Source: a virus
Virus record (IMG/VR): IMGVR_UViG_3300025141_000047
Coordinates: 1 to 64,000 of that record
Strand: one strand, 5' to 3'
DNA: 64,000 nt
Made by a program: the position numbers and the translations under genes. Under the pieces are notes generated by a model, which worked only from the letters and a program-made list of their open reading frames with translations, made no database searches and was not told the DNA's origin. Positions 3,812 through 54,979 of this stretch are shown piece after piece (the first letter of the stretch is position 1; every line of letters starts with the position of its first letter).

Positions 3812-4101
3812 TGGGTGAAAATGATTTCAAGTCAAGAATTTTTGGGGTTGTTCCTACATCATTCACACCTGGTTTTGAACTACACATAATGACCAGTGAG
3901 GCTTTCAATGCGAGAGTCTTGAACTTGAGATTAAATCGTGTGATACCGTCTATGAGAGGCTACACTGGATATACAAAACAAGGGTTCATGCTGTCAAGAG
4001 ATGAAGCAAGGGTCTTACTCGAAGCGTTGGTTGAAGTCATACATGATGATGATGCGTGGGAGGATGAACCCAGTGAAACAGTGGTGATTGATGATGATTG
4101 A
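3808..4101 (+). CDS. small protein, possibly PC4-like
   Basis: This 97-residue protein starts on an ATGATG that overlaps the previous stop. Residues of roughly 30-75 run as beta strands followed by GFMLSRDEARVLLEAL and a final helix. That loosely recalls the PC4/YdbC single-stranded DNA-binding fold, in which strands lead to a K-G-[IF]-x-L-[ST] turn and a helix. The resemblance is weak and rests on pattern alone. The acidic tail overlaps the next gene. Confidence 0.45.
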   Translation: MMGENDFKSRIFGVVPTSFTPGFELHIMTSEAFNARVLNLRLNRVIPSMRGYTGYTKQGFMLSRDEARVLLEALVEVIHDDDAWEDEPSETVVIDDD

Positions 4102-4459
4102 ACGATGGATTGAACATCACCATGAGATTATATCTCACTTTTCAGCACGACTGGAACTACCAGAAGAAATAACTCCGATCATTTGCGAGATTTGGGATAG
4201 AACACGGTTGAAAGCAGCAAGGATTCCGAAGTCATTGATTGTTGATTGTGTGTATCTGGTTGCACACATGACAGGGAATCGGCGGTCAATTGTTGATATG
4301 AAAGACGCTGCATTGTCAATTATTCAAAGACGGACTAAACCATTTAATCAAGATCGGAGAAGGGATAAAGTGAATTGGGTTGAAACAGATTGGGCTAAAG
4401 CAATAATTCTTGACATACTGCCTGATGAACAATCCTTTGATGATTTCATGAATAGGTGA
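4091..4459 (+). CDS. possible TFIIB-like cyclin-fold protein
   Basis: This protein has 122 residues. Several in-frame starts cluster at 4088 (TTG), 4091 and 4094, all inside the end of the previous gene. The middle part, with EIWDRTRLKAARIPKSLIV followed by CVYLVAHMTGNRRS and a further helix, resembles one cyclin repeat of archaeal TFB/TFIIB: an aliphatic helix, a Lys/Arg-rich turn, a 'YLA'-type helix and a charged 'R-S-hydrophobic' turn. No zinc ribbon or second repeat is present. If correct, it could modulate host transcription. The assignment is tentative. Confidence 0.5.
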   Translation: MMIERWIEHHHEIISHFSARLELPEEITPIICEIWDRTRLKAARIPKSLIVDCVYLVAHMTGNRRSIVDMKDAALSIIQRRTKPFNQDRRRDKVNWVETDWAKAIILDILPDEQSFDDFMNR

Positions 4460-4463
4460 TGGC

Positions 4464-5909
4464 GTGAACTACCGCATTCTTGCTGAATCAATACGGGTGT
4501 GCAGGGCTATACCCCATGATAAATCAAAAATCATCAAGAATATGCTTTTGATGTGTCCTTTGAGTCAATGGAAAATTGCATACCTTTGCCATGCCCCATC
4601 ATCAAAGCATAGACTCTCCGATGAGGATTTACGAGAAATCTATTTTTTATTGACTGATCTTTATCCAGAAGAAGTTGAAGAAAACCCCAATTTGATTTCA
4701 ATGTTGGCTGGATTGTCAAAAGCAAACAAAACGGTTGCTATTGTTGATCGTGTTTTTGAAATCACAAAGTCGGTTTTAGAATCATGTGAAAACAATGTGC
4801 AGCGTTCAAACACAATTCGCCCTCTCTTTTCACGTATCACTTCTCAAGACCTAAAATGCTTCTTTCACCGATTGAGCAATAGACAGGGCATAATCAACCG
4901 CCATGACATCACAAAGGCTCTTGCTCATGCAAATGGAGAACTTATGAGGCACGTGAGGAAAGCATCATTCTTAATTGGTTTAGAGAAGGTATGCGATAGG
5001 CTTTCACGACAGGAAAGCATTCACGATGTCCTCAAACCTGCTATCGGAATGCCGATGATTATTCCCTCACCTACGATCTGCAACATTCGAGATATTCCTT
5101 TTGGGCGAACCTACTTGGAGATTCCAGAAGGAGAACGAATGACCCTGCACGTTCTAAAGGATGATATGCGATTATTCAATGTTGCTGGTGAGCGCATTGA
5201 TGATGAGGACTCCACGCTAAAAACGATTGTTGAAGCATCAGGAGTCAAAGAGGGCATCTATCTGGTTGAGTATGCAAGCGGCAGGGATATTGAAATGATG
5301 TTTGTTGATTTATTGACCCCCAGTATTGAAACCATGCCTTTTGAAAAAAGAAGGATTGAGATCGGTTGCCCCAATTGGTCTTTGAAACCAATGAATGAGA
5401 TTAACGATGCCACCTACTACCTTGAACACGTGGGGGCAAAGCAGCCTGTGGTTCTTTGGAACGCCAATGGTATATTGACCTATGAGAGTTCAGTATATGA
5501 GTCGGCTTTGATGAACATTCATCAAGTGCATAAGTCTGTGTTTATGGTTGTTGGAGGGTTGTATGTGAAAGAAAACCCGCTATCAAAACCAGTTCTTTCA
5601 AAGTGGAGAATTGCTGTCCGAGATGGCGACTCGCATTATGATGTTGGACTTGTTGATATTGATCCTACTGTTTCTTTGATGAGATTTACAAACCCTCACA
5701 AAATAATTGAAGGCGAACAGGTTTCAATGAAGAGTCCCGTTTTTGTAAATGTCAAAGTTATTTCATCTGGGTGGGGGGATTATGGGGCTTACATTCAAGG
5801 CATGATTGAAAGTGTCGCCAATAGTGCGGGTCTTTCCGATTGCGTTAGCATTGATGAAATCGAAGCCTTAACAAAGAGATGGGATGAAGAATATGGAGAT
5901 AATGACTAA
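4464..5909 (+). CDS. ATP-dependent DNA ligase-like protein lacking the catalytic lysine
   Basis: This 481-residue protein has a GTG start. The order of segments matches an archaeal/eukaryotic ligase I. There is a helical DNA-binding part (about 1-190), a linker LKPAIGMPM that recalls the conserved 'kPMLA' region, and an adenylation-like domain (about 205-360). The C-terminal OB-like part starts at VFMVVGGLYVK, near the usual 'D-L-V-V-V-G' start. At motif I, K-x-D-G-x-R is replaced by I220-P-E-G-E-R225, so the lysine that accepts AMP is missing. Motif III (D-G-E) reads V-E-Y270, and motif IIIa is kept as FVDLL (280-284). I infer a catalytically dead ligase used for DNA or clamp binding. An unrelated fold cannot be excluded. 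Confidence 0.6.
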   Translation: MNYRILAESIRVCRAIPHDKSKIIKNMLLMCPLSQWKIAYLCHAPSSKHRLSDEDLREIYFLLTDLYPEEVEENPNLISMLAGLSKANKTVAIVDRVFEITKSVLESCENNVQRSNTIRPLFSRITSQDLKCFFHRLSNRQGIINRHDITKALAHANGELMRHVRKASFLIGLEKVCDRLSRQESIHDVLKPAIGMPMIIPSPTICNIRDIPFGRTYLEIPEGERMTLHVLKDDMRLFNVAGERIDDEDSTLKTIVEASGVKEGIYLVEYASGRDIEMMFVDLLTPSIETMPFEKRRIEIGCPNWSLKPMNEINDATYYLEHVGAKQPVVLWNANGILTYESSVYESALMNIHQVHKSVFMVVGGLYVKENPLSKPVLSKWRIAVRDGDSHYDVGLVDIDPTVSLMRFTNPHKIIEGEQVSMKSPVFVNVKVISSGWGDYGAYIQGMIESVANSAGLSDCVSIDEIEALTKRWDEEYGDND

Positions 5910-5960: not shown

Positions 5961-6416
5961 ATGGCTGAGATTAACGATGGTGATGTTCATAATCTCAACA
6001 ATCAGCCTATTGATATTGATATTGGTTTTGGTTCTCTATCCGATAGCCTGGATTTACAACAAACTGATTTGAGGAATACATTGATTTCAGCCATGTTGTT
6101 GAGGGGCGATATACGATGCCGATTAACAACAAAATTCAAATGTGGTTATGAGATTAGACCCATCATTTGGTTTTCTAAGCAAACAGATGAAGTGGATGCT
6201 ACATTAGAGAAGATCGGTTTGAATTGGAAAAGAACTTTTGTTCGCACTGAGGACATCACTAAATTATGCTTCGCCTTCTCAAAGTTCTTCAATCTCAGCA
6301 CAAAATCACAGGGCTTGAAAATGGTGGAGAGCCTTAATGGGGTGTTGCCCCAACCCCTTGATTATCAAGAGGTGAAGGAAGCACTTATTCAAATTGAGAA
6401 TATAGTGAGCCTTTAA
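5961..6416 (+). CDS. hypothetical protein, weakly LAGLIDADG-like
   Basis: This 151-residue protein starts at an ATG preceded by AAAGG. The segment from GDIRCRL through GYEIRPIIWF and a later helical part faintly recalls half of a LAGLIDADG homing endonuclease domain. The signature LAGLIDADG helix itself is not evident, and I cannot point to active-site residues. A 14-codon mini frame at 5913-5957 sits just upstream. The protein should be treated as of unknown function. Confidence 0.5.
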   Translation: MAEINDGDVHNLNNQPIDIDIGFGSLSDSLDLQQTDLRNTLISAMLLRGDIRCRLTTKFKCGYEIRPIIWFSKQTDEVDATLEKIGLNWKRTFVRTEDITKLCFAFSKFFNLSTKSQGLKMVESLNGVLPQPLDYQEVKEALIQIENIVSL

Positions 6417-6461: not shown

Positions 6462-7781
6462 ATGAATGAAGCATTGAAGCGAGTTATGGAAGCCAAAAAT
6501 TTGAGCGAAGAAGAAACAAAGGCTGCGTTTGCAGAATTTGTAAAGGAGAATTACCCTGAGATTTGGACTCAGGCTGCTGAAAACATCAGCAACCTTGAAG
6601 ACGAGGACATGGACTTCTTTTCATCTGCGTTTGAAGTGAATACAGTAAGAAGAAAAGGCACAGGTGGCAAAGGCGAAACTTGGGTTGGTATGATTGTGGC
6701 CTATGATGGGACACGTGATATGATGCAACGCCAAAGAGATACAGCCATTGAAGCGGCTGAGATCAATTTGGGTCAAGCACTTCGATACGGCATCAAGCAA
6801 AACGACAGAAGCATTGGAATTGGCCGTGTGGTCAAGTCCAACGAACCTGACTCAAACTGGTGCGTCAAAGGTGCTGATGATTCTTTGCTTTACAAGGAAT
6901 CCGCTACTGATGATAAAGTCCCGCTTTGGGTCATCGCCATCAACAACGGCGCATCCCACATCTGTTTGCTCAAGGCCGACAACCGTTCTCCAAAGAGGGC
7001 GTTCATGGTCAAGCGCAAGTGGCTTTTCATCGGCAACACGGAAGAGAAGTTCCTGAGCGAAGGTGCTTTGCCTCCAATGACGCTTGAATGTTCCTTTGGT
7101 GCTGCTGAGGTTGAACTTCAAATGCTTCGACCAATCAAGTTCAAGGCTGAAATGGAAACGGCATGGAAACCTCAAGGATCGGATGAGCCAGACCAACAAC
7201 AATTGGTTGCTCTTGACATTGATGCAGACTATGGCCTTGACTGGGTGGAAGAATCAATCCGCCCAAAGGTCGTGAGCCTGTTTGCACCAGACCAATTCCT
7301 CGCCAATTTCATGCCTTCTGTTGATTTGGCCGACGTTTTTGATTACCACATGGCCGAGCGCAAAATGCTTTCATCTGGGAAGGACTTTGGACCCCTATTT
7401 GCTATCAGTGGAACTGTTGATTACATAGACCACGCAGGTAAAGAGAACCTTTACACCGAAGGCGGATTCAAGCATTCAATCACTTTGACTTCAAACAGTC
7501 TGCGACGTGAGGATGCAAACGCAAACCTTTGGGTTGATGTTTCCCGACACCTTGTTGAGAAGCAACACGCATTCCAGGTCAAGAAGGCCGACTCATGGCG
7601 TGATTATGCAAGTGGAAGCCGTCTGTGGATTGTTGTTCGCTCTCGAACATGGCAAGGCACTGATGGAAGCGTCAATCTCAACATGGATGCAAAGAGCGTA
7701 TATGCTATGCCTCTCCGATCCATCGTGGCTAAAGAAGCCCCTGCCGATGCAAACGACATATCCCACACAAAGGACTTTTGA
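6462..7781 (+). CDS. candidate single-stranded DNA-binding protein
   Basis: This 439-residue protein lies directly upstream of a RecA-like ATPase. The C-terminal 140 residues have a beta-rich OB-like pattern: a FAISGTVDYI strand, a charged loop, ANLWVDVSRHL, GSRLWIVVRSRTW and a final strand. A second beta-rich region (about 150-190, including PLWVIAINNG and KRKWLFIG) may be another barrel. No zinc finger is present. The neighbours (Sak4-like ATPase, nuclease, primase) favour an RPA-like role coating replication intermediates. This is inferred from pattern and context, since no diagnostic motif exists for OB folds. Confidence 0.4.
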   Translation: MNEALKRVMEAKNLSEEETKAAFAEFVKENYPEIWTQAAENISNLEDEDMDFFSSAFEVNTVRRKGTGGKGETWVGMIVAYDGTRDMMQRQRDTAIEAAEINLGQALRYGIKQNDRSIGIGRVVKSNEPDSNWCVKGADDSLLYKESATDDKVPLWVIAINNGASHICLLKADNRSPKRAFMVKRKWLFIGNTEEKFLSEGALPPMTLECSFGAAEVELQMLRPIKFKAEMETAWKPQGSDEPDQQQLVALDIDADYGLDWVEESIRPKVVSLFAPDQFLANFMPSVDLADVFDYHMAERKMLSSGKDFGPLFAISGTVDYIDHAGKENLYTEGGFKHSITLTSNSLRREDANANLWVDVSRHLVEKQHAFQVKKADSWRDYASGSRLWIVVRSRTWQGTDGSVNLNMDAKSVYAMPLRSIVAKEAPADANDISHTKDF

Positions 7782-10438: not shown

Positions 10439-10982
10439 TAGATCATGGGCAATGCCAAATGCACTTACATTTTCAATCCAACCAATAACATTGTTTTTGG
10501 AGGAAGAAATCAAAGGAGAGGAATGGGCTGATCCATTCGCAAGGAATACAGATTTGGCGAAATACACAAACGATCTTAATCCCAACACCAAAGCCCAATC
10601 TAATTTGGAAGCATTGGACTTTTTGAAAACTTTTGAGAATAATTCCCTTGACGGAGTTCTTTTTGATCCCCCCTATTCCCCACGTCAAATTAAGGAGGTG
10701 TATGATGAAATAGGAATCCCTCTCCATGATACAAAAAGTTCGGTTTGGTCGAATTGGAAAAAAGAAATAGCCAGAATCGTTAAACCTGGCGGCAAAGTCA
10801 TATCATTTGGATGGAACACCTGCGGAATCGGCTTAACACTTGATTTCAAAATAGAGCGCATATTGCTTGTATGTCATGGCGGGAACCATAATGATACAAT
10901 CGTGACGCTTGAGGTAAAGGGCGATAAAGCAAATTATCCCTCAGCAAAACAAACAACATTATTTCAGGAGGGGGAGGAATGA
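10428..10982 (+). CDS. DNA methyltransferase, small DPPY type
   Basis: This gene encodes 184 residues, with the ATG at 10428 preceded by a G-rich stretch; a TTG lies at 10425. Motif IV is DPPY at 80-83, and KPGGKVISFGW (119-129) follows as the usual next strand. This places it in the amino-methyltransferase class (N6-adenine or N4-cytosine). It is shorter than typical enzymes and lacks an obvious F-x-G-x-G AdoMet motif, so the AdoMet site may be degenerate or the protein may act with a partner. The tail has Q175-TTLF179, a clamp-binding-like peptide shared with the other methyltransferases here. Confidence 0.6.
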   Translation: MKIDRSWAMPNALTFSIQPITLFLEEEIKGEEWADPFARNTDLAKYTNDLNPNTKAQSNLEALDFLKTFENNSLDGVLFDPPYSPRQIKEVYDEIGIPLHDTKSSVWSNWKKEIARIVKPGGKVISFGWNTCGIGLTLDFKIERILLVCHGGNHNDTIVTLEVKGDKANYPSAKQTTLFQEGEE

Positions 10983-11998
10983 AAGTTAGACCGCCTAAGC
11001 CCAGACCGATCCCCGTAAGCGGAGATTTGTATTCAACATACGCATGGCATCCAAACATGGCCGATGATAAAATCCTCCGTGTAAGTAAATCCTCACTTGG
11101 GGCTTTCCAAACCTGCGAGCAACAGTATTTCATCAAATATGTGCTTGGAGTCAAAGAGCCTGAAAACGATAACATGATTCGAGGAACAAACGTGCATGAC
11201 GCATACGAGTTCATTATGGATCGTAGCCTTGATGTTGAACACGCAACAAAGGTGAAAGAGCAACATGGCTATGAAGGCGTAAGAGGATATTTTGAATCTC
11301 TTATCCCTCCCGCACAAATCAAGAAGGGATGGGATGATGAATATGCCCTCCCTACTGGGAACGAATACACATTGGGCGAGCCTGAACATCTATCTCGATT
11401 GATGGAAGCCGAATCAAAGCGATTCATGGGTTCAAACCCCAATGCCTTTTTGCCTGTTGGAAACGAATTGGGCGTTGATGCTATCGTTGAACTTGACATT
11501 AACGGGACAAAGGTTCAGGCTCACTTGAACGGTTTCATTGACCGCTTGTTCATGGATGATAACGGCGATTATCACGTTCATGAATTGAAAACAGGGCTGT
11601 GGAAGGATAAGAAAACTAAGTATGAGAGCATGGCAAAAGAAATGGCTTTCTATGTGTATATGCTCAGTAAATCGCAGCAACCCACGCATGGCGGAGTCAA
11701 TATCCGCTATTGGGGATGGGATCACACAAAAGGCATAGAAGGAACTCCAACCCAGATTTACAGATTTATTGAACCTGTCAAGGCAGGTATCATTTCCGAT
11801 ATGCTCACCGATCTCAAAGCCCTTGTATCGGCACACCTTCGATACAAAGGAGATTTTAACGGCAAAATGTTTGCTACAAAACCGACTGGTGCTGAGAGGT
11901 ATTTCTGTCTGCCCTGGTGCGGGGTCAAGGGTTTTTGCCCTAAGTATGAGCGACACATGATGCCGCATGAAATGAGGGATAAAGTGGAGGGGAATTGA
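10979..11998 (+). CDS. PD-(D/E)XK nuclease, RecB/Cas4-like with Fe-S cysteines
   Basis: This 339-residue protein begins on an ATGA overlap. The N-terminal part has the family pattern SKSSLGAFQTCEQQYFIKY. His73 (GTNVHDAYE), Asp188 (GFIDRL) and E202-L-K204 form the usual H...D...ExK active site. Cys46 with Cys310, Cys314 and Cys320 matches the split four-cysteine 4Fe-4S arrangement of Cas4/AddB-type nucleases. The likely role is DNA end-processing exonuclease for recombination or replication, next to the Sak4-like ATPase. No helicase domain is fused. Confidence 0.75.
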   Translation: MKVRPPKPRPIPVSGDLYSTYAWHPNMADDKILRVSKSSLGAFQTCEQQYFIKYVLGVKEPENDNMIRGTNVHDAYEFIMDRSLDVEHATKVKEQHGYEGVRGYFESLIPPAQIKKGWDDEYALPTGNEYTLGEPEHLSRLMEAESKRFMGSNPNAFLPVGNELGVDAIVELDINGTKVQAHLNGFIDRLFMDDNGDYHVHELKTGLWKDKKTKYESMAKEMAFYVYMLSKSQQPTHGGVNIRYWGWDHTKGIEGTPTQIYRFIEPVKAGIISDMLTDLKALVSAHLRYKGDFNGKMFATKPTGAERYFCLPWCGVKGFCPKYERHMMPHEMRDKVEGN

Positions 11999-18758: not shown

Positions 18759-18934
18759 AAGAGTATCGTGATCAAGTAATGCAAACCTGTTCAGGTTGCG
18801 ATACCGATGTGTTGGCGATTCGCATAAACGGGTTTTATGCGGGGAGTCGTGATAGAATCTTTTTATGGGAATGCCCTATGTGTAAATTCATCTGGCGCAA
18901 GCCAAAACCAATAGTGGTGAATGAAAATGACTAA
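18755..18934 (+). CDS. small zinc-ribbon protein
   Basis: This 59-residue protein starts on ATGA with a GGAAGAGG ribosome-binding site. CSGC and CPMC pairs are 28 residues apart around a short beta hairpin, a zinc-ribbon layout. It ends in Glu/Asn/Asp and overlaps the next gene. It belongs to the run of small zinc proteins encoded in the plus-strand block. Confidence 0.55.
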   Translation: MKEYRDQVMQTCSGCDTDVLAIRINGFYAGSRDRIFLWECPMCKFIWRKPKPIVVNEND

Positions 18935-19328
18935 AGAACATTGTCAAATATGCAATCAAGACGGCCACTTATCGCATGATTGCTCGCATGATGATGAATG
19001 TAAATGTTGTCCTTGCGGGGAAGAATGCCAGATGTTTTGCACTTGCCCTAAATCTGCACCGCATATAGATAATGAAGATCACCGCAAATCAGCCGACAAA
19101 CCCTTTGAAAAAGCATGGACTTTGATGAAGTCCGATTGGTGGGAAACCATTGATTCGGAAATGGAGAAACCTGTTGCTCGTTTTGAAGGTGGACCGATTG
19201 ATTGCCCCGAATGCAAAGGCTTACATGGGGGAATGATTCGTGAAGAAGAAGGACACCTCAATTTTGTTTGCCCTGATTGCGGCTACATGGAAAACGCAAA
19301 GTATTTTCAACCCCTAACAAGTGAGTGA
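18921..19328 (+). CDS. CCHC zinc-knuckle and zinc-ribbon protein with F-x-x-AW motif
   Basis: This protein has 135 residues. Residues 8-21 read C-QI-C-NQDG-H-LSHD-C, an exact C-x2-C-x4-H-x4-C zinc knuckle. A dense cysteine group follows (CKCCPCGEEC...CTC), then the peptide FEKAWTLMK at 62-70, and finally a CPEC...CPDC ribbon. CCHC knuckles usually bind single-stranded nucleic acid. The F-[DE]-x-[AS]-W peptide recurs in five other proteins of this window. An ATG two codons downstream is an alternative start. Confidence 0.6.
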   Translation: MKMTKEHCQICNQDGHLSHDCSHDDECKCCPCGEECQMFCTCPKSAPHIDNEDHRKSADKPFEKAWTLMKSDWWETIDSEMEKPVARFEGGPIDCPECKGLHGGMIREEEGHLNFVCPDCGYMENAKYFQPLTSE

Positions 19329-20745: not shown

Positions 20746-21972
20746 TCAGTAATCAAAAAGACTCTTCTTTTTCATCCCTCTTTGCACGTGTTCAGGAAAG
20801 TTCCTCAATCCGAGAACCTCAACTACGGGTGTTGCATTCCTTTTTGGTTTTCTCATCCATGTGTGGGTATCAAAATTGGCATCCAATAAATCATCAATCA
20901 TTTCTTGATTTGGCAAACCTGTTTGTGGATTGACCATGTAATTTGAATAAACAACTGGTCCATCATGTTCAGCCCCTATTTTGATTGTATCTCTTTGAAG
21001 TTGATCGTATAATCCCCCTTGTAATTGTTCATCGGAACCCCCATACTGTATTTTCCGACCAACATATTGAGGATCTAGGTATAGGAACTCATCGCCTTGC
21101 ATCAACTTTGCCGTATCTCTTAAATCTCCTGAATGTATTTCAACGTCTTTCAAACGGTTTGCATAACCGCTTAGATCAATTGAGCCAACATCACTTGGCA
21201 TCCACCGTATCTGTTTTCCATCCTTCATTGGGGGGTTTCTCCAACCAGATTTGTATGCTGGACCTTCAGTATATCGAGAGCCACCATACCATTCAGGGAA
21301 TTTTGCCTTTTGCTTAGGGCTTGTTGGATATTTCAAACCAAAGAATGATTGTTGATTTGCCCCAACTAAATTATGAGCCAATTCCATGTTTTCATCGTCA
21401 GTCAGATCCCGCCCCATGACATCTCTTTGGAATCTCAAATCATTAAACCGATCAATCATTTCAAACATTCTTTCTTTATTTTTAGGCAATTCAACATTAC
21501 CCATGCCTGTTTTCAGTTGTTGGAATAAATTAGTGTTATCAGGGTTAATGTCTGCAAAAAATCCTGTTCCCCTATTTAATCCGAGAATTGTTGAACCGCT
21601 TCCACCATAAAGTTCAGCAGGTCGAGCATCAGGGAAAAAATCAGCAAGACCTCTCATGTAAGGTTGAATACCTGTTTTTCCACCAACCCAATTTACAACT
21701 GTGGGAAGCATTTGTTCGCTTGATTTGAAACCTGGTTGTAAATCTTTGAATGAAGCACCACCCTTCATTTTAGACCACGATTTGTCTTGTAATTTACCAC
21801 TTTGATATGGAAAAGGGAATGGTGATAATTTCTTATTTTCCCCTCCCCATCCGTGAATTTGTTCATTGAGAAGGGGCATCAAATCATCCATGCTTTCATA
21901 GGATTTGCCTTCATGGTAAATATCGGCCTTCATCAGATCCCATGCTACATCAAACACCATATCAAGCCTCAC
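20746..21972 (-). CDS. D12-class DNA adenine methyltransferase-like protein, DPQY variant
   Basis: This 408-residue protein has the Dam-type motif NWVGGKTGI (94-102), the AdoMet motif ELYGGSGST (120-128) and the catalytic motif LDPQY (299-303), where the usual second Pro of DPPY is Gln. Residues 7-15 read FDVAWDLMK, the recurrent tag-like peptide, followed by about 75 residues of extension not found in ordinary Dam proteins. The C-terminus is K402-KSLF406-DY, similar to the clamp-like tails of the other three methyltransferases. It ends the late operon, away from the other enzymes, so it may be made late or enter virions. That is inference. Confidence 0.7.
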   Translation of the reverse strand: MRLDMVFDVAWDLMKADIYHEGKSYESMDDLMPLLNEQIHGWGGENKKLSPFPFPYQSGKLQDKSWSKMKGGASFKDLQPGFKSSEQMLPTVVNWVGGKTGIQPYMRGLADFFPDARPAELYGGSGSTILGLNRGTGFFADINPDNTNLFQQLKTGMGNVELPKNKERMFEMIDRFNDLRFQRDVMGRDLTDDENMELAHNLVGANQQSFFGLKYPTSPKQKAKFPEWYGGSRYTEGPAYKSGWRNPPMKDGKQIRWMPSDVGSIDLSGYANRLKDVEIHSGDLRDTAKLMQGDEFLYLDPQYVGRKIQYGGSDEQLQGGLYDQLQRDTIKIGAEHDGPVVYSNYMVNPQTGLPNQEMIDDLLDANFDTHTWMRKPKRNATPVVEVLGLRNFPEHVQRGMKKKSLFDY

Positions 21973-22234: not shown

Positions 22235-22717
22235 CTAAGCCATATTTTCCGTTGCATCATCGTAATAATCCATGAATCCTTCGGCAACTTCTTCCCAATC
22301 AACATCGCTCATTGCATCAACTTCACCATATCCACTTAATTCTTCATGAAAACCTTCAATATCCATCATTGCGGCAGGTAAGACCTTTGTTGCGAGCAAC
22401 GTTTTGACCTCATCTCGACTTTCACCCATATTAACTGCGGATTGAATGGCGTTTATGGTTGTAAAGTAAATGCTTTCAGTGTTTTGCGCCCATAATTCAG
22501 CACTACGGGTTGCCGTAGCCATGTCTTTTAGCATCAAAGACCAAGCAGTATCAAAGGACTTCTTTTGCATCATTCCAGATACAGCACCGCCAATCAAATT
22601 ACCTGCTGCTTGTTGAACTTTAGGATTCTTTGCTGCTGCCGCCCCAACTCTTGCTGCACCTGCAACCAGTGGTGCAACTTTTTCTTCATTCTTTTCATCG
22701 TTCTTTTCTTCGGACAT
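22235..22717 (-). CDS. small acidic protein with Ala/Gly-rich segment and F-x-x-AW motif
   Basis: This 160-residue protein has a Glu/Lys-rich start, then an Ala/Gly/Val-rich stretch (about 15-50) that could insert in a membrane or pack as a flexible helix. FDTAWSLMLK follows at 55-64, and then an acidic helical C-terminus. It abuts its neighbours tightly. No family was recognised. The shared peptide with neighbours suggests a common partner. Confidence 0.55.
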   Translation of the reverse strand: MSEEKNDEKNEEKVAPLVAGAARVGAAAAKNPKVQQAAGNLIGGAVSGMMQKKSFDTAWSLMLKDMATATRSAELWAQNTESIYFTTINAIQSAVNMGESRDEVKTLLATKVLPAAMMDIEGFHEELSGYGEVDAMSDVDWEEVAEGFMDYYDDATENMA

Positions 22718-23058
22718 TATCTCACTTCCATTAGAATATCAACACGGACTTCATTTGTTCCGTTCTTTGTGATAGGCATGAATGTTGCCCTAAAAGAAGG
22801 CGAATCAAGAGGGTTTGTCCCATGAAGGACAATCTCAGTGATGGCCTGTTCGCTGCTCAACTGGGTATCAAACAATGCACTTACAGATATAGTCCGATCA
22901 TCAATGCGTTGAATCAATGTGTCTTGGCTCATTTTGGTGTTCCCTGCGCCTCCATCACGGCTTGAGGCATCGGAAGTCCCAGAACCAAGCGAACACTTCT
23001 TGATGAGCGTTTGGAGGTGGTCGGTCAAAGCGGCTTTTAGGGGGTCAAGAACAGGCAT
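22717..23058 (-). CDS. small hypothetical protein
   Basis: This 113-residue protein starts MPVLDPLKAALTDHLQTLI, an amphipathic helix. A Ser/Gly-rich linker and a beta-rich C-terminal half (ITEIVLHGTN, FRATFMPITKNGTNEVRVDI) follow. The helix-plus-beta plan recalls small tail or baseplate proteins. It lies between two proteins that carry the F-x-x-AW peptide but lacks that peptide itself. Confidence 0.5.
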   Translation of the reverse strand: MPVLDPLKAALTDHLQTLIKKCSLGSGTSDASSRDGGAGNTKMSQDTLIQRIDDRTISVSALFDTQLSSEQAITEIVLHGTNPLDSPSFRATFMPITKNGTNEVRVDILMEVR

Positions 23059-23285
23059 TATTTCACCTCCCTCATTGAACTTTTCACATCATGCCTTCTT
23101 GATTCGCAATAAGGTGTTTGGGGGTCCATGCACATATACGCAGGTTCGACAAAACGGCCACTTGAGCCAATAAATCCATCTTGATATTCCATTGGACCTT
23201 TGCATTCAGGGCAATCCATAGGAAGCATCAACTTGTGCCGACTTTTTCTTTTTAGCAACCCCCATGCTTTTTCAAATGCGCCCAT
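23058..23285 (-). CDS. small zinc-binding protein with F-x-x-AW motif
   Basis: This 75-residue protein begins MGAFEKAWGLLK, so the recurrent peptide is at the extreme N-terminus (4-12). A CPECKG pair and two later cysteines (YMC, YC) could bind zinc. The remainder is basic. It follows the giant tail-tip gene with one base between them. Function unknown. Confidence 0.55.
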   Translation of the reverse strand: MGAFEKAWGLLKRKSRHKLMLPMDCPECKGPMEYQDGFIGSSGRFVEPAYMCMDPQTPYCESRRHDVKSSMREVK

Positions 23286-46494: not shown

Positions 46495-46881
46495 TTAATC
46501 ATGGAGGGTAATTGGGGGCTTGCCGCCCTTTCCTCGCTTCATGTGTTTGATTGCGTTTCTTCGAGTTGGGCATGACGACAAAGGAACATCTGGGCTTGGG
46601 CAAGCCATAGGGTCCCCATGACATACTGGGCAATCGCCAAACTTCATCAATTCCCATGATGCCTCAAAAATAGATTTTCTCATAGATGCTTCATCAGGGT
46701 CGTATTCAGGCGATTTTCCGCCGTCATAAGGTGGCCTTTTTTGAGGTTTAGGATTGTCATAAGGAGATGGAGGTTTTTCTTTTGGCTTATACTCAGGGTG
46801 AGGGTTAGATCCATCACGGTATGGTTCGCTTTTTTTATCATCTGGTCGTTTTTTGGGGTCGGGGGTGTAAGGATTGCTCAT
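46495..46881 (-). CDS. proline-rich protein with F-x-x-SW motif and zinc cysteines
   Basis: This gene encodes 128 residues; the ATG at 46881 overlaps the upstream stop by ATGA. The first 65 residues are a disordered Pro/Lys/Asp/Tyr-rich tract. Residues 72-80 read FEASWELMK, the recurrent peptide, followed at once by CPVCHGDPMACPSP and a further Cys. The C-terminus is basic. It is the only member of the motif set that lies away from the 19-23 kb cluster. Confidence 0.55.
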   Translation of the reverse strand: MSNPYTPDPKKRPDDKKSEPYRDGSNPHPEYKPKEKPPSPYDNPKPQKRPPYDGGKSPEYDPDEASMRKSIFEASWELMKFGDCPVCHGDPMACPSPDVPLSSCPTRRNAIKHMKRGKGGKPPITLHD

Positions 46882-47210
46882 TGATGGTGTCCTCCTAAGT
46901 TGTAATACATCGCTTCTCCACATACGGCACATTCAGGAGTCCAACAGAAGTGAAGCATCCCACACGCAATACAGCGTGTTCCTGAGCCAATGTTTTGAAT
47001 ATCCTGTGCTTGTTGTTTTGTGACCTTAACAAACGTAGTCCCTGCACGATCCATGTTCTCTTTGCTGAATGGTGAATCATCCTCAGCAATTGATCCTTGA
47101 GTTGTGGCTATCTCAAACATTCGAGAGTTCCTTCGCTTCTTAATCTCAAGCGAAGTATCGAGGTCCATTTCGCCTACTTCAAGTCTTGGCATGGGGTATT
47201 TCCCCCTCAT
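46878..47210 (-). CDS. small zinc-ribbon head protein
   Basis: This 110-residue protein has an acidic, helical first part and then a CIACG...CAVCGE pair in the last 35 residues forming a zinc ribbon, closing with Gly/His. Placed among small head genes, it could stabilise the capsid or contact DNA. No family was recognised. It overlaps both neighbours by ATGA-type junctions. Confidence 0.55.
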   Translation of the reverse strand: MRGKYPMPRLEVGEMDLDTSLEIKKRRNSRMFEIATTQGSIAEDDSPFSKENMDRAGTTFVKVTKQQAQDIQNIGSGTRCIACGMLHFCWTPECAVCGEAMYYNLGGHHQ

Positions 47211-51523: not shown

Positions 51524-54500
51524 TCAAATCTCTTCTGCTTCCGACCTATCATCAGGTTCGGCTTCTTGCTCATCAGCCATTTCCTGTTGCGTTTTTAGGG
51601 GCATTCTTAGAGTTGCAGTTCCATTTTGAACATCTATTACTGCTTGTTCCCCTGTTGCGGAGTCTTTAACCTGCAAATGTTTCATTGGAATCTCTTCAAC
51701 TTCTTCGGATTCTTTGGGATCGTAAAATGTAGTCCCGCTATCCTCTATGAGTTCTGTTGGACCTCTTGGGGCGGTAATATCGGCTTGCATCCCCGCCCAT
51801 GCGCCACCATCTGGTGAAATACGATTCATTCTCGGAAACATATTTTCGATAATATCATCATCTATTGCTTCATTAACAGTCCATTTTTTCCCATCATCTG
51901 TCCTTTCAAGGCCATATTCTCCTGAAAACATCTCAAGCATTTTCTCATTGAGTCCTTTGACATTATCCAACAAGTATTCTGTTGTTTTTGCCGTATCATC
52001 CTCAGTTATTGTCTTACGTGCCTGTTGCATAGTGTGTGCTACATTATCGCCTTCTTCATTTTCACCAATGATTGATGGCGCACGTAGCAAGGTCTTTTTT
52101 ACAATACTCAATTTTCGAGGTCGCTTTCTTTTCAGGGTTGAATGAAGTGGCTGATGAGTTCCACCATCACTTGAAGTGACTGTCCCACCTGCCGCAGCAC
52201 CGCCTCCCCCTGCCGCAGCACCTTCTTTCAATAAATCAACTGCGACTGGACCCCATAATGGAATGTCATTTTGTGCTTTTGTGAACATGGCTTCGTTTCC
52301 TTCAAATGTTGAGATGGTGAAGCCCTTTCCATCAAATTCACCCTTTACAATTACAGGATCATAAATTGAAGGATATACCAATTTTATTTGATTGGGATAG
52401 ACAATGAGTTCAGGCATTGGAGGATAGAATGCTTTAGCGATGGAATCCTTTGCGTATCTAATCCACTTTGGGTGGACTTCTTTTTCTTTCATGAATGTTG
52501 AACGTGAATCTCGAATTAACAATTCATCATCGTCAAAATTATGTATCGCTTTTCCTAAACCTTCTTGATCGGTTGATACGCAATTAGTGGGCATTGGAAA
52601 ATGCACATTTTCTGTTGAATCATAAAGTGTCCTTAACGCATTGATACGATCTTCAAGGGGTTCAAGGTGCATATCTGTTCCTTTGTGAACCAACAAATCA
52701 ACTACTTTGAGGGTCTTTCCATCCAAATATCCATCAAAAGTAAAATCCCCTTTTATTTCACGCAATTGCTTCTTTATTGAACTGGGCAATTTATCTGTTT
52801 TCAAATGATTACCTTTTCTTTCAATGAACATTCGCTCTCCTTGCGGCATTTTTTGAACTATCCAATCTCCTGAGAATCCACGCAACTTATCCATGTCATC
52901 TAATTTGTGAATCGTGTATGCTGGAATGATTTTGGTTGTAAAAACGCCAGTTGGTTCATAGTCCTCCGCTTTGAGAATGCTTCCTGTTGCGATAGGCGAA
53001 AGTCCTCTATGGTCTAAAGCCGATAAAGCATGAATATCTCTTTGCTTCGGCATAACATTTGACTCCAATAGTGAAGGCAATACTGCCTTTATTTTGTTTT
53101 CATGAACAGTTCTTTGCATAATGTTGAACGGTTCTTCGGCCATTCCAAAACTGATGCCCCCGCTTTGAGGATCATGTTTCCATGTAAGCGTTGCTGGCAT
53201 TTCATGACCCCAAAGGTGGGTGTTTCCAGTATTGTAAGTGGGAGGGGTTGTAGCAAATGATGTAGGATGAACGGGTCCAAGTTGTTTCAATTGCATTGCT
53301 ATTTTGTTTCCATTCATTGTTGGGGCTAAGGCTCGGTATTCTTCCCCCATATTCATTTTCTTCATAGCAAAATCAGCCGCACCTGCAAGTTGTTGTAGGT
53401 TTCCACGTGCGAGAGTTGCTTGTTCCATGTTTGTTGGATCGGAGGGATTAAGGATTTGAGGTCCAAGTTGTTTCATCACCCTTTGAGCCATATTGTTCAT
53501 CACTTTACCCATGTGCATATCATTTGCGGCGAATAAAGCGTTGTGATTATCCCAGTATGTAGGGTTTGATGAGGGGTGTTCTTCACGGAACATACCGATT
53601 CTTGGTGAACCCATATCTGCTTGACCAGATAAAGAACGCCCTAAACGACTCATCATCATTTGGTCGGATGGGACAATCATTCGGCCTCCTTGACCTTGAA
53701 CTTCACTGGGATGCAAAAAATGAAGGTTTGAAGCATGACTCCAATTCGCCCTCCGCTTCTCGAAAAAGTCGGCATCGTTGAAATTTGATGTTAAAGAGGC
53801 GTGTGATGGATTATTCTTTGCATCAGGATGGTTGGAGATGTGAGGAAAGTGGCTTCCCCCATCGGATTCATAGGTGTCAAGCATACTGTTTGAAACGCCC
53901 ATTAAAGCCTCATCAAGCCAACCGCCGCCGAAAACTTTTGGGTATGTTTGACTCATTATGTCATGCAATGAATTTGAATCACGCCCCACGCCTCCCCAGG
54001 GCTGAAATATGTCCCACCAATGATGGGTATGCGATGGTTCAACGCCATTCGCCATCTCAACAAAAGGACTGACAAAGTGCAAATCAGCACTTGCTTCATC
54101 ACTTTTCATAAACTCGGCGTTTGGCATCATTTGAGGAATTGGTTCTTTTGCAGGGCAAACTGGACCATGACGATCACTTGCCCTGCGCCACCATTGAAGG
54201 AGAGGAATATATCTCGCTCGAAATGAGCGTAATGCCCGACCCCATGAAATCCCCGCCTTTTCGCTCATTTTGTTTTTCAACACTTTAGCATCAGGTGAGT
54301 TCATGTCTTTTTTTGTAGCCATCTGTTGCATCAGCCCCAAAAACTGTTCTCGTTGATCCTCAGTGTTATATTCCAAACCAAACAGATAAGGCAACAAACC
54401 CAATCGCTTTTGCCATTCATTGATTTTCCCATCACGGTATTCGTCATCGGAATATGTGCTGTATCTATTCCGATCACGTGTCATCAAATCATGCAACGTT

Positions 54501-54979
54501 TCTTTTGGCTGACCATATCGGGCAATATCAAAATTAAGACGGCTTTCATGTTCAGCAATTGCTTTGAGATGAGGCATGGCGTGAGCCAAATGTTCAGCGT
54601 ATGCAGGGTCGCCCCATGCTGCGCCATGAAGCAACGGGCAACTGTTTGATTTCATGCCGAATGGTTGATGTTCGCCAAACTGATTTTCTGGCGATGCAAT
54701 AGGCCAGTCTGTTAATGGATTGTTTGAAACCTTTGTATGCCCCGCTACAAAATCAGCATGAGTAGGTATTTTCATTTGAGATACCGCCATTGGTGCGGAT
54801 AAATCGGTCATTCTAAACTCAGGCAATTCAGGTGTCATGCCTCCAAGCATGGTTGCCGTGTCTTGAGGCGTTTCTTGACCGTCTGGGATTTGACCTGCAT
54901 AATGCTTAAAATCAAATGCTGATGCTTTGTGAATTGAAAGGATTGCATCTGTTCGCAGCCTATCTAATTCAAGCGTCAT
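51524..54979 (-). CDS. large head-region protein with ligase-like domain lacking the catalytic lysine
   Basis: This protein has 1151 residues. About 1-650 are Met/His/Asn-rich with no recognised domain. Residues 665-845 follow the ATP-dependent ligase order. A linker (GLSPIATGSILKAEDY) leads to motif I-like K710-M-P-Q-G-E-R716, motif III-like FDGY751, motif IIIa VVDLLVHKGTD (759-769) with PLEDR, motif IV-like ELLIRD (819-824), and motif V-like W839-IRY. The nucleotidyl lysine is displaced or replaced by Met711, and the motif III Glu is Tyr. The rest has a Gly/Ala run (GAAAGGGGAAAGG) and an acidic tail. Its place between portal-side genes and the protease suggests a virion protein. Catalysis is doubtful. 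Confidence 0.6.
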   Translation of the reverse strand: MTLELDRLRTDAILSIHKASAFDFKHYAGQIPDGQETPQDTATMLGGMTPELPEFRMTDLSAPMAVSQMKIPTHADFVAGHTKVSNNPLTDWPIASPENQFGEHQPFGMKSNSCPLLHGAAWGDPAYAEHLAHAMPHLKAIAEHESRLNFDIARYGQPKETLHDLMTRDRNRYSTYSDDEYRDGKINEWQKRLGLLPYLFGLEYNTEDQREQFLGLMQQMATKKDMNSPDAKVLKNKMSEKAGISWGRALRSFRARYIPLLQWWRRASDRHGPVCPAKEPIPQMMPNAEFMKSDEASADLHFVSPFVEMANGVEPSHTHHWWDIFQPWGGVGRDSNSLHDIMSQTYPKVFGGGWLDEALMGVSNSMLDTYESDGGSHFPHISNHPDAKNNPSHASLTSNFNDADFFEKRRANWSHASNLHFLHPSEVQGQGGRMIVPSDQMMMSRLGRSLSGQADMGSPRIGMFREEHPSSNPTYWDNHNALFAANDMHMGKVMNNMAQRVMKQLGPQILNPSDPTNMEQATLARGNLQQLAGAADFAMKKMNMGEEYRALAPTMNGNKIAMQLKQLGPVHPTSFATTPPTYNTGNTHLWGHEMPATLTWKHDPQSGGISFGMAEEPFNIMQRTVHENKIKAVLPSLLESNVMPKQRDIHALSALDHRGLSPIATGSILKAEDYEPTGVFTTKIIPAYTIHKLDDMDKLRGFSGDWIVQKMPQGERMFIERKGNHLKTDKLPSSIKKQLREIKGDFTFDGYLDGKTLKVVDLLVHKGTDMHLEPLEDRINALRTLYDSTENVHFPMPTNCVSTDQEGLGKAIHNFDDDELLIRDSRSTFMKEKEVHPKWIRYAKDSIAKAFYPPMPELIVYPNQIKLVYPSIYDPVIVKGEFDGKGFTISTFEGNEAMFTKAQNDIPLWGPVAVDLLKEGAAAGGGGAAAGGTVTSSDGGTHQPLHSTLKRKRPRKLSIVKKTLLRAPSIIGENEEGDNVAHTMQQARKTITEDDTAKTTEYLLDNVKGLNEKMLEMFSGEYGLERTDDGKKWTVNEAIDDDIIENMFPRMNRISPDGGAWAGMQADITAPRGPTELIEDSGTTFYDPKESEEVEEIPMKHLQVKDSATGEQAVIDVQNGTATLRMPLKTQQEMADEQEAEPDDRSEAEEI

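Follow-up and report, generated by a model that had tools for sequence, protein, structure and literature searches.

A conserved ligase-derived pseudoenzyme without the catalytic lysine, encoded in a gene block with a Sak4-like protein in marine tailed viruses

Introduction

DNA ligases need their catalytic lysines to seal DNA. The yeast ligase Dnl4 with the substitution K466A nevertheless promotes end joining without adenylation (PMC3694833), and since this dead enzyme still aids the process, a non-catalytic role for a ligase homologue is plausible. Among viruses, Magrovirus/Aoguangviridae are marine, about 90 kb in size, and assigned to archaea; a replication module with PolB and an ATP-dependent ligase has been reported for them, as have an ERCC4 nuclease and an HMG-CoA lyase (PMC10768690, PMC10160649). 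In phages, Sak4 is a replication recombinase (PMC5499656). Our literature search found no inactive DNA ligases in viruses and no full-length ligase homologue that is natural, widely conserved, and devoid of every catalytic lysine.

Here, we analyzed a window of 64,000 nucleotides, which corresponds to positions 1 to 64,000 of the IMG/VR virus record IMGVR_UViG_3300025141_000047. The whole record comprises 92.8 kb, and its genes for a terminase, a portal, a prohead protease, and an SU10-type capsid protein identify a tailed virus. The host may be a marine archaeon, as suggested by the ERCC4-HhH, TFIIB-like, and primase-like genes. The window encodes a conserved pseudoenzyme that is derived from a ligase and stands outside the active ligase family.

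Results

The reading frame of the pseudo-ligase is open, encodes 481 amino acids, and begins with a GTG right after the end of the preceding gene (Table 1). No significant sequence match was found for it in Pfam, PHROGs, or the PDB. A family profile of 12 sequences likewise did not recover ligases from the PDB, and no match at the gathering cut-off of PF01068 (DNA_ligase_A_M) was obtained for the protein, for its relatives, or anywhere in the virus's own genome.

Table 1. Positions of the pseudo-ligase gene, its parts, its neighbors, and other features (window coordinates unless marked as genome coordinates)
Feature	Position	Strand	Basis or remark
Pseudo-ligase gene, 481 aa	4464-5909	+	ORF, relatives, fold
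Helical part, residues 1-195, similar to the N-terminal DNA-binding domain (DBD) of ligases	4464-5048	+	all-helical in model, hhalign to ligase DBD; boundary approximate
Nucleotidyltransferase-like part, residues 196-352	5049-5519	+	hhalign, model; boundary approximate
Degenerate motif I, E219-I-P-E-G-E-R225 (ligases: K-x-D-G-x-R)	5118-5138	+	lysine site I220 = 5121-5123
K308 codon	5385-5387	+	sole invariant lysine of the family (34/34 clusters)
OB-like part, residues 353-470, W381..RDG..YY.VG, without motif VI RxDK	5520-5873	+	hhalign, model; boundary approximate
Upstream neighbor, 123 aa, weak TFIIB (cyclin-like) repeat	4088-4459	+	syntenic in 46/50 loci
Downstream neighbor, 151 aa, conserved	5961-6416	+	45/50 loci
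Downstream neighbor, 439 aa, conserved	6462-7781	+	48/50 loci
Sak4-like ssDNA annealing protein (RecA-type ATPase), 418 aa	7791-9047	+	47/50 loci
PD-(D/E)XK nuclease	10979-11998	+	PF12705, E 6e-18; same block in 33/50 loci
1151-aa protein flanked by portal and prohead protease	51524-54979	-	ligase-like segment at about 52088-52957
Peptide-bearing regions	18921-19328; 20746-21972; 22235-22717; 23058-23285; 46495-46932	+; -; -; -; -	
Further peptide-bearing region, beyond the window	genome 75857-88193		loci L017/L018
HMG-CoA-lyase-like protein	genome 83954-84871 (L018:454-1371)	-	by eye

The fold was modeled with AlphaFold. With 43 diverse sequences, the mean pLDDT was 82 and the pTM 0.68, compared to a pLDDT of 36 with 11 close sequences. 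All 50 matches listed by Foldseek against the PDB were DNA ligases aligned over their full length. The best match was the P. furiosus enzyme 2CFM (E 3.5e-19), and the others included 9DFA, 2HIV, 3GDE, LigIV, LigI, and LigIII. TM-scores by query length ranged from 0.37 to 0.58 (TMq 0.58 for A. fulgidus 3GDE), which is in line with variable domain placement, yet not decisive. When Foldseek was run against a viral library, viral ligases ranked first.

When the family was aligned to ten archaeal ligases, hhalign gave a probability of 96% and an E-value of 1.4e-9 over 423 columns. The score was 81; with the profile reversed it was 16.7, and none of 20 column shuffles exceeded 22.4. The archaeal profile was built solely from fetched loci, and the P. 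furiosus query sequence was verified against 2CFM. Clean nulls and full-length structural matches together make ligase homology well supported along the whole length, with predicted helical DNA-binding, nucleotidyltransferase, and OB parts. A first-pass annotation of this DNA had proposed the segment order and fold of an ATP-dependent ligase and had named structure prediction as a check; the modeled nucleotidyltransferase and OB ligase fold, with 2CFM as the first match, agrees with it. The 'kPMLA'-like linker that it had described shows a loose similarity, with LKPAIGMPM in this segment.

Motif conservation was scored on 34 clusters of family members, made non-redundant at 90% identity. The lack of the motif I lysine at residues 219-225, noticed in the first-pass annotation, is a property of the whole family. 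Its site, three residues ahead of the invariant G223, is occupied by I, V, S, T, E, Y, H, N, or P, but never by K, and the preceding residue is almost always E. Thus a position that ligases keep fixed drifts freely here, which is the pattern predicted by lost adenylation. Because the loss is common to relatives at 29% identity, it is old. Lysine-keeping relatives, for which a search had also been proposed, were not found across the viral contigs. The lysine motif KIVSGRW in L128 was rejected, since it occupies a different site in a truncated copy.

The other catalytic motifs are degenerate as well. In motif III, the reported loss of D-G-E holds, but one acidic residue, E/D269, persists in all 34 clusters. 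Motif IIIa has an invariant D282, and its aromatic residue is replaced by V/I/L/C. The lysines of motif IV EGxxxK (EGLMAK in ligases) and motif V KxK (WLKIK in ligases) are gone from the aligned segments PVVLWNAN and SALMN, and no motif VI RxDK (LRxDK) occurs near the C-terminus; the alignment is weakest over motifs IV, V, and VI, so residue pairing there is approximate.

The pocket has not decayed completely, since H229, E/D269, D282, R296, and K308 are retained. These invariant residues are more than a pure scaffold needs and leave room for relocated chemistry. The protein could still be a nucleotidyltransferase that uses the invariant K308 as nucleophile or phosphate ligand, and migrated catalytic lysines are indeed known in the kinases WNK1 and POMK (PMC10211241). 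However, K308 aligns between motifs IIIa and IV, away from motif I, and motifs IV, V, and VI have disappeared along with the motif I lysine; we regard this explanation as unlikely.

In the helical part, the basic DBD columns R57, R114, R124, R136, R146, and R165 are kept. The signature LxDEDxRE..LTDxYPEE (residues 51-70) is among the strongest conserved features of the family, and we know of no ligase counterpart. Charge counts against DNA binding: on family mean, the nucleotidyltransferase part has a net charge of about -10, and the DBD is only weakly basic.

The largest profile scan of viral contigs yielded 68 pseudo-ligase loci with relatives 29-91% identical, and 50 full or near-full proteins were aligned. 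The family is large and occurs in marine tailed viruses. Pattern-based and tblastn searches, with the limits inherent to them, recovered no member from 84,980 prokaryote genomes or from the annotated phages. Comparison to four close relatives gave dN/dS values of 0.056-0.091 in the computable cases, with all three parts constrained; these values are rough because synonymous sites are near saturation. The term viral pseudo-ligase, introduced in the first-pass annotation, is therefore appropriate for a ligase fold under strong purifying selection in which, family-wide, motifs I, IV, and V have no catalytic lysine and motif VI has no RxDK.

On contig IMGVR_UViG_3300029309_000005 (96,627 bases), the gene is split over both ends (L008/L009) with an overlap of about 30 residues, which suggests a complete genome that is circularly permuted or terminally repeated. 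Another relative (L019:897-2357) carries an in-frame stop (MPFQ*RREQ) and is thus either broken or mis-sequenced. Such a stop could suggest that an ordinary ligase was misassembled or misannotated, but the loss is common to 50 aligned relatives on independent contigs, and dN/dS is low; a conserved family already contradicts an artefact, to which we assign a negligible probability.

PF01068 had no match above cut-off in 46 viral records, an NAD ligase was absent from 21 long records, and a canonical ligase was not detected in the window virus's own genome; these counts rest on contigs that may be incomplete. PF01068 does not detect even the pseudo-ligase and could likewise miss a very divergent ligase. 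PolB was present in nine of the 21 long records, and no match was found in the window virus. A ligase shape without catalysis, in records where no canonical ligase is detected, would suit a decoy sitting on nicks, or on host replication/repair factors, and thereby blocking host ligation or repair of viral intermediates. A ligase-less virus that blocks the host ligase would damage itself, however, and by gene order the pseudo-ligase belongs with viral recombination genes, not with genes for host takeover, which makes a decoy improbable. Clamp binding, also suggested in the first-pass annotation, finds no support: PCNA exceeded the cut-off in none of the 21 long records, and no conserved clamp-binding motif was seen. 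A partnership with PCNA was therefore dropped.

The pseudo-ligase lies in a block with the order TFIIB-like 123-aa protein, pseudo-ligase, 151-aa protein, 439-aa protein, and Sak4-like 418-aa protein, often followed by a PD-(D/E)XK nuclease. The TFIIB repeat PF00382 was detected in six of 29 members of the 123-aa family (best E 8e-5), and the window copy (E 0.0038) stayed below the Pfam cut-off. Its conserved position upstream could indicate that the pseudo-ligase is a transcription-linked DNA binder acting with the TFIIB-like protein. Given the sub-threshold match in the window and the recombination-type genes downstream, we consider such a role very unlikely. The 151-aa neighbor had no credible match in the PDB, and an SSB-like role of the 439-aa neighbor is possible from its position.

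The profile phrog_124 (Sak4-like ssDNA annealing protein) matched 13 of 29 members of the 418-aa family (best E 9e-7), with the window copy below the threshold. A reverse search starting from Sak4 found the pseudo-ligase in 66 of 66 loci with sufficient upstream sequence, most of them on the same contigs as the earlier scan and hence not a fully independent sample. At these 66 loci, a profile of real ligases had no match. In the 14 Sak4 loci without a pseudo-ligase, Sak4 lay within 2.8 kb of the contig end. Synteny, rather than interaction, suggests the link to Sak4.

The 1151-aa protein of the head module contains residues resembling ligase motifs I, III, and IIIa, and orthologues were present in 20 of 46 records, chiefly long ones. 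Most aligned members have a lysine in motif I, K-P-x-G-[KE]-R (KPxGKR). The window copy reads K-M-P-Q-G-E-R, with M at the lysine site and K one residue earlier, as in two others. The hhalign match of the segment to ligases was weak, yet above the nulls (E 0.0017; score 33 vs at most 21). We take this candidate second ligase-like domain as a lead.

Sixteen predicted proteins together contain 17 copies of the short peptide F-x-x-[ASTV]-W-x-x-[LM]-K (e.g., MTAFDTAWSLLKM), mostly close to their N-termini. After shuffling of the proteins, the count was 0.03; the pattern was derived from the same proteins, yet the excess is huge. The peptide may be a capsid-targeting or ejection tag. For the HMG-CoA-lyase-like protein, the best matches in the phage collection were annotated as 2-isopropylmalate synthase (34% identity).

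Discussion

The low dN/dS (0.06-0.09) and the almost fixed operon that ends in a Sak4-like protein argue for a working, non-ligating protein. The ancestor was a three-part ATP-dependent DNA ligase. Most likely, the present protein forms no lysyl-AMP intermediate and seals no nicks. Its old ligase architecture would most likely serve to bind DNA, or to close around it, where there are nicks, gaps, or annealed joints. The protein would most likely be a subunit without catalysis that works alongside the Sak4-like protein and both conserved neighbors in recombination-dependent replication or repair, and the host ligase would do the sealing. The DNA-nick scaffold that the first-pass annotation had envisaged would fit the place beside the Sak4-like protein. 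Taken as a whole, we consider it probable that this is a ligase-derived, DNA-binding, non-sealing pseudoenzyme of a viral Sak4 recombination/replication module. More tentatively, these viruses may have made a ligase into a cofactor that binds nicks or joints for a Sak4-type recombinase, or may use new chemistry centered on K308, perhaps with a second ligase-like domain in a head-module protein.

The pseudo-ligase offers a clean system for asking what a ligase contributes to DNA repair apart from sealing, and it points to a recombination module that is absent from the annotated phage collection.

Compared to Magrovirus/Aoguangviridae, the window virus is alike in marine setting, size, and the presence of ERCC4 and putative HMG-CoA-lyase-like genes, but has no PolB match, and no canonical ligase was detected in it. 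Archaeal ATP-dependent DNA ligases (P. furiosus 2CFM, S. solfataricus 2HIV, A. fulgidus 3GDE) share the order of parts and match the structure over the full length, whereas the pseudo-ligase lacks the motif I lysine, has lost motifs IV, V, and VI, and is 13-15% identical to them in structural alignments. The protein R4T9C5 of Halogranum tailed virus 1 (HGTV-1), an archaeal tailed virus, is of similar size and a structural match (E 2.8e-12); compared by fold and annotation, it differs in being annotated as a DNA ligase. Finally, Dnl4 K466A is an engineered point mutant of an active enzyme, whereas the pseudo-ligase represents a natural inactive family.
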